Of a stretch of 64,000 nt of DNA, positions 31,783 through 31,900 are shown in pieces. This DNA is from an uncultured Actinomycetes bacterium. Its GTDB lineage: Bacteria > Actinomycetota > Acidimicrobiia > Acidimicrobiales > RAAP-2. Within the stretch, counting starts at the first letter, position 1. The number at the start of each line of letters is the position of its first letter. The notes below the pieces were generated by a model. It made no database searches, was not told where the DNA came from, and saw nothing but the letters and a program-made list of their open reading frames with translations. A program made the translations under genes and the position numbers. The stretch is from positions 39,283 through 103,282 of the forward strand of contig CAIORQ010000105.1 of the NCBI GenBank assembly GCA_903860745.1, in the 5' to 3' direction.

Positions 31783-31806
31783 AAAAAACCCCCGCGCGAG
31801 CGGGGG
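31783..31806 (-). terminator. Leader terminator upstream of leuA
   Basis: Minus strand CCCCCGC-TCGC-GCGGGGG-TTTTTT: perfect 7-bp stem, 4-nt loop, T6 tract. Confidence 0.85.
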
Positions 31807-31829
31807 CGTGGGGCGAGCGGGGGCTCGCC

Positions 31830-31865
31830 CTACCGAAGAAGCAACTCGCGGCCTGCGTGTGTCAC
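31830..31865 (-). promoter_or_regulatory. Putative leucine leader peptide ORF (attenuator) for leuA
   Basis: GTG ACA CAC GCA GGC CGC GAG TTG CTT CTT CGG TAG = [12 protein letters not shown]; directly followed by a perfect 8-bp hairpin (31811-31830) then the terminator. Confidence 0.8.
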
Positions 31866-31871
31866 CCCATC

Positions 31872-31900
31872 ACTCTACCGCGCGACGCGCCGGCGTCCAA
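31872..31900 (-). promoter_or_regulatory. Putative sigma-A promoter of leu leader
   Basis: TTGGAC (31895-31900) - 17 nt - TAGAGT (31872-31877); 6 nt before leader GTG. Confidence 0.5.

Follow-up and report, generated by a model that had tools for sequence, protein, structure and literature searches.

A candidate ribosome-mediated leucine attenuator with a stop-anchored hairpin upstream of leuA in Acidimicrobiales

Results

The window analysed here is a stretch of 64,000 nucleotides from an uncultured actinobacterium of the Acidimicrobiales. On its minus strand it carries leuA (30071 to 31747), encoding 2-isopropylmalate synthase (TIGR00970, 781.8 bits with a cut-off of 697.4; PRK03739), whose closest named relatives are found in metagenome-assembled genomes of Acidimicrobiaceae and Acidimicrobiales, often with palsa, bog or fen as isolate names. 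Two similar tandem ORFs resembling membrane proteins, each of about 210 aa (28729 to 29373 and 29425 to 30045, minus strand), lie downstream of leuA and gave no Pfam match at E 0.01. The element under study (31783 to 31900, minus strand) lies upstream of leuA and extends from a -35 hexamer to the end of a U-tract. By direct reading, the -35 hexamer is TTGGAC (31895 to 31900), of which TGGAC recurs in this position in almost every leader of the genus, and a spacer of 17 nt separates it from the -10 hexamer TAGAGT (31872 to 31877), itself 6 nt 5' of the GTG of a leader peptide ORF. This ORF of 11 codons and a stop (31865 to 31830, minus strand) reads GTG ACA CAC GCA GGC CGC GAG TTG CTT CTT CGG TAG, with a genus consensus of (S/R)ELLL(R)*, and is the one in which an earlier note on this DNA had recognised three adjacent Leu codons, TTG-CTT-CTT (31836 to 31844). 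The perfect 8-bp hairpin that the note had placed next to the stop codon is present, but it overlaps the stop rather than abutting it, the first base of this hairpin, H1 (GGGCGAGC-CCCC-GCTCGCCC, 31811 to 31830), being the G of TAG. The terminator hairpin, T (GCCCCCGC-TCGC-GCGGGGGT, 31788 to 31807), starts 3 nt 3' of H1; its U-tract of six thymines (31783 to 31788) is as previously described, whereas its stem, given then as 7 bp, comprises 8 pairs of which 7 are GC. The terminator scan of the region returned T with its U-tract as the sole site (0.3 expected), and the element has a folding z of -2.6. A further helix, P1, is formed by 9 perfect pairs between GGCCGCGAG (31845 to 31853), in the leader codons directly 5' of the Leu run, and CTCGCGGTC (31770 to 31778), directly 3' of the U-tract. 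The likely Shine-Dalgarno sequence of leuA, by direct reading, is GGAAAGGA (31753 to 31760).

The promoter lies close to the leader in relatives as well: TANNNT stands 6-7 nt 5' of the leader start in 51 of 51 genus elements, compared with 5 of 415 other ATG or GTG codons in the same regions, the leader start having been chosen partly by this motif, although most leaders offer just one or two starts. Because the -10 hexamer is only six nucleotides from the GTG, the leader mRNA is very probably leaderless, with transcription beginning at the GTG itself. Leaderless leaders have been reported in other actinobacteria (PMC8079986, PMC11857589).

A relative of leuA was present in all 61 genomes searched, and the element was located directly upstream of leuA in 78 of 80 named loci by the covariance model R1. 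The comparison of leuA upstream regions among relatives, which the earlier note had suggested, revealed that the Leu-codon ORF, H1 and T are kept both within the genus and throughout the order, with compensatory changes, the same array being found in nearly all genus members and in many other families. The lack of conservation that the note had named as refuting its reading is thus clearly not what the relatives show. A model built from 13 sequences from outside the genus ranked the window site first in the 64 kb with E = 1.4e-7, the next match having E = 1.3. In an alignment of 98 sequences fitted to the model, with which a MAFFT alignment of 33 sequences agrees, H1 and T were 93.8% paired and showed 145 cells with double-sided changes, against 44.7 +/- 12.6 in shuffled alignments and with none of 500 shuffles as high; all 7 modelled pairs of H1 show compensatory changes. 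The geometry, searched with H1 from -2 to +4 and H1-T gaps of up to 12, is fixed: in all 135 distinct elements the base of H1 lies -2 to +1 nt from the end of the stop codon, the gap between H1 and T is 0-6 nt (0 nt in 57 of the 135), and T starts 19-32 nt past the stop codon. Every usable element has at least 4 T in 8 positions of the U-tract. One leuA of the same genus (L027, genome G022) is without leader, H1 and terminator but keeps a promoter-like TAGAAT motif; the attenuator may have been lost there naturally, or the assembly may be faulty. Two other loci of the order (L043, L045) have a Leu-rich ORF and stems upstream of leuA with no terminator, an arrangement that recalls the LEU element; a terminator type and a type resembling the LEU element may therefore coexist in one order.

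The sensing codons, too, are fixed in position. The last branched-chain codon stands 0-2 codons ahead of the stop in 135 of 135 distinct elements, and the Leu run of the window is placed accordingly. The earlier expectation that TTG and CTT would be uncommon held for CTT, which makes up 1.8% of the Leu codons in 41 ORFs of the window, and only in part for TTG (8.4%). CTT is enriched in the leaders, where it accounts for about 32% of Leu codons, and is the commonest at position -2, directly ahead of the last codon (28 of 51 and 43 of 84 elements). In the genus, CGA is the commonest last leader codon. The model also matched upstream of other genes, identified from their N-terminal sequence rather than by family search: a second type of leuA (L134, L138, L142, L143, L147, L158, L159) and leuS (L151, L155, L160), both with Leu codons, and ilvB, with Ile and Val codons in the same place (IVVVP* in L163, VVLVT* in L167, ILVVT* in L170, LVLVM* in L171), GTT being found at -2 in all four of these leaders. 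Weak matches in other classes (E above about 1e-3), some of which are ordinary terminators (L172, L175), were left out of the membership. Nothing speaks more strongly for ribosome stalling as the means of sensing than this correspondence between the codon run and the pathway of the downstream gene, and these comparisons give good support to codon identity as the signal read. At genus loci reaching the start of leuS, no attenuator was found upstream of this gene. Two genomes of another class (L161, L168) have the chassis, with LVLI codons, upstream of a gene for a conserved small protein (MRYEFERxGTxVA...), which may be branched-chain-related. The window itself contains a second leaderless attenuator (51191 to 51070, minus strand) before ilvB (49370 to 51052, minus strand), with the -10 hexamer TATATT, a leader ORF with Val codons (51179 to 51126, minus strand), a hairpin that spans the stop, and GGCCTCCC...GGGAGGCC with T5 as terminator, kept in the genus relatives that were looked at.

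According to the earlier note, the switch would operate through mutually exclusive folds involving CCCCCGCTCGC, which is indeed present twice in the window. This proposition was not supported: the duplicate is not conserved, the H1 loop that completes its first copy varying freely among relatives, no antiterminator pairing clearly co-varies, and T is stable under masking. Among 28 segment pairs examined by permutation, the arms of H1 (z 11 and 19) and of T (z 9 and 17) stood out; no pair other than H1, T and P1 gave a clear signal, and no antiterminator clearly co-varied, in a test that is blind to an invariant antiterminator. Weaker signals were obtained for the pair of the H1 5' arm and the T 5' arm in the genus (positive, z 1.7, p 0.06) and, outside the genus, for two pairs that include the H1 3' arm (p 0.008 and p 0.016, with no correction for the 56 tests). 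When the leader RNA was masked as a ribosome would mask it, the probability of T remained at about 1 under nearly every mask. Maximal H1 and T had no base in common in 126 of the 135 elements and a single one in the other 9. Complementarity between the loops of H1 and T did not rise above permutation, nor did the Leu run pair with the Shine-Dalgarno region of leuA more than under permutation (10.94 observed, 11.21 +/- 0.33 permuted).

P1 also co-varies (z 4.6 in the genus, z 2.5 in other families) and its strands differ in sequence among relatives that keep the pairing (L021, L024, L033 and L037 among them). In the window, folding joins its 9 bp with H1 and T, which it closes into a three-way junction that leaves the leuA Shine-Dalgarno sequence outside P1. 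As P1 can form only after read-through, it lies outside the termination decision; one guess, to be taken as weak, is that it curbs renewed translation of the leader or alters access to the leuA start.

Discussion

The view of the earlier note that the element is a ribosome-read leucine attenuator of leuA is supported by the order-wide presence of the promoter, the Leu-codon ORF, H1 and T, by the match of the model built outside the genus, by the exchange for Ile and Val codons before ilvB where Leu codons stay before leuS and the second leuA type, and by the enrichment of the rare CTT at the last Leu. We consider it highly probable, from sequence comparison, that termination answers to leucine. 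Of the features of the trp/his/leu class, a leader ORF with a Leu run, predicted to be translated, is present in 135 distinct elements and is followed by an intrinsic terminator, but an antiterminator exclusive with T was not found by covariation, masking or overlap count. We therefore tentatively propose for H1, at somewhat less than an even chance, the part of a foldable spacer or an abutting steric antiterminator rather than one in alternative pairing. This role of H1 is favoured because of the fixed spacing of codons, stop, H1 and T, the distances involved and the known repression of terminators by ribosomes.

A 70S ribosome would start at the leaderless 5' end and translate the 11-codon leader while closely following the RNA polymerase. 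With sufficient Leu-tRNA, the ribosome reaching the stop codon would cover the 5' arm of H1 and prevent H1 from folding; the stretch of 19-32 nt from stop to T would then be extended, T would close and transcription would end (OFF). Under a shortage of Leu-tRNA, it would instead halt at the Leu run, its leading edge reaching the base of H1, and H1 would fold directly ahead of it, reducing the link between the A site and T to about 10-17 nt. A link of this length would prevent the closure of T inside the RNA exit channel and permit read-through into leuA (ON). No precedent for the spacer step is known to us in any system. The footprint and distances used in this reasoning are E. coli values: a ribosome at a stop codon represses a close terminator, its footprint extends about 10 nt past the A site, and repression is gone beyond about 27 nt (PMC4824070). 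T would thus lie about 10-17 nt from the ribosome with H1 folded, within this limit, and 19-32 nt with H1 open. Some of the latter distances are ones at which a terminator is still subject to partial repression by E. coli ribosomes, which counts against H1 as a spacer. So do the weak signal for the H1 5' arm with the T 5' arm in the genus and, for the attenuator as a whole, the lack of the element in L027. Taken jointly, that the element is a leucine-responsive ribosome-mediated attenuator of leuA and that H1 serves as its spacer falls a little short of an even chance. The broader proposition appears slightly less probable still, although possible: an amino-acid attenuator devoid of antiterminator pairing, in which a stop-anchored hairpin is the spacer and a stalled, not a terminating, ribosome blocks T, the chassis serving leuA, leuS and ilvB, each with its own sensing codons, in Acidimicrobiales and in a number of further genomes of actinobacteria.

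Other explanations must be weighed against the same evidence. In a classical multi-state attenuator of the trp/his/leu type, stalling would favour a helix overlapping T, and H1 would be a pause hairpin or an anti-antiterminator. The leader peptide, regulatory codons and terminator match this class, and the antiterminator of C. glutamicum ilvBNC overlaps its terminator by three nucleotides (PMC11857589); however, the segment pairs able to exclude T lack clear covariation, T keeps a probability near 1 under nearly every mask, and the maximal H1 and T share at most one base, in 9 of 135 elements, so we regard this explanation as unlikely. A similarly low probability is given to the idea that H1 alone, without any contact of the ribosome, hinders the closure of the base of T, the ribosome merely setting whether H1 forms. 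The narrow gap between H1 and T, absent altogether in 57 of the 135 elements, speaks in its favour, but it would leave a leader that is not translated in the ON state, whereas removal of the leader start codon of C. glutamicum ilvBNC, a different attenuator, is cited in PMC11857589 as lowering expression by 80%, which suggests that the untranslated state is OFF.

Control of the kind suggested for the LEU element, in which protein binding or P1 as a closing stem would act on leuA translation while T is a constitutive damper, would be consistent with the covariation of P1 and with the nesting of H1 and T inside it, which resembles the published LEU-element fold of a base stem with two internal helices. 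It is nevertheless improbable, more so than the two preceding explanations, since the leuA Shine-Dalgarno sequence is outside P1, its pairing with the Leu run is not above permutation, and the codon swaps before ilvB require sensing by the ribosome. Finally, an unrelated short ORF might lie by chance beside an ordinary terminator; at least three Leu in five codons have a probability of about 0.006, and intergenic terminators are common. This is extremely improbable, and was rejected because Leu codons, stop, H1, T and the spacing of the promoter are conserved together throughout the order.

Leaders with Leu runs before actinobacterial leuA are already known, namely the LEU element (PMC1262725), leuL1 (PMC8079986) and that of C. 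glutamicum (PMC4046766). The LEU element (Seliverstov et al, 2005; PMC1262725), which includes a conserved pseudoknot, and leuL1 of S. lividans (PMC8079986) share with the present element a short Leu-run ORF before leuA, leaderless in the case of leuL1, and a closing stem around two internal helices described as one fold. They were described without a terminator, the mode of leuA control being left open in both reports, whereas the window element has a strong intrinsic terminator; moreover, they have a base stem formed by the Leu run and the Shine-Dalgarno sequence of leuA, and P1 of the window pairs other segments. Terminator-bearing attenuators are known for ilvB (PMC11857589) and leuS (PMC8079986). 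In the leuL2 attenuator of S. lividans leuS (MRAVRLLLSEPR*, PMC8079986), too, the leader is leaderless and has a Leu run, with a hairpin and a U stretch downstream of it, but this attenuator controls leuS, and a stop-anchored first hairpin adjoining the terminator is not described there. In the Corynebacterium ilvBNC attenuator and the ilvB-II motif (PMC11857589, PMC10272879), the leader lies at or one nucleotide from the transcript start, has branched-chain codons and is accompanied by a terminator beside a preceding hairpin; there the antiterminator overlaps the terminator by three nucleotides, unlike H1 and T of the present type, which adjoin with no shared base in 126 of 135 elements. The enterobacterial leu leader (RF00512) has leader-peptide Leu codons and a terminator in common with the window element, in which no antiterminator was found and which scored below the Rfam threshold for this family (12.8 bits, gathering score 50; E 3.9). 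No Rfam family reached its gathering score for the window element. A Chlorobi-1 match (31784 to 31846, plus strand; 36.6 bits, gathering score 50) was set aside as probably two GC-rich hairpins read on the opposite strand. A mechanistic parallel may be the E. coli pyrBI attenuator, in which, by the account given in PMC4824070, the ribosome itself prevents the terminator from folding; its signal is polymerase pausing (UTP), whereas the window element would use charged Leu-tRNA, with H1 producing a short spacer. No publication describing an element of this kind in Acidimicrobiia was found in a literature search whose coverage excluded most subscription journals.

The leuA leader described here thus combines, across an order, a Leu run with a terminator in a compact and fixed geometry, whereas earlier actinobacterial leuA leaders were described without a terminator. 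That leuA, leuS and ilvB share a chassis in which the codons are exchanged amounts to a natural design experiment. If the antiterminator-free mechanism is true, attenuators would be recognisable from the spacing of codons, stop, hairpin and terminator alone, and searches that require overlapping hairpins would miss many of them.
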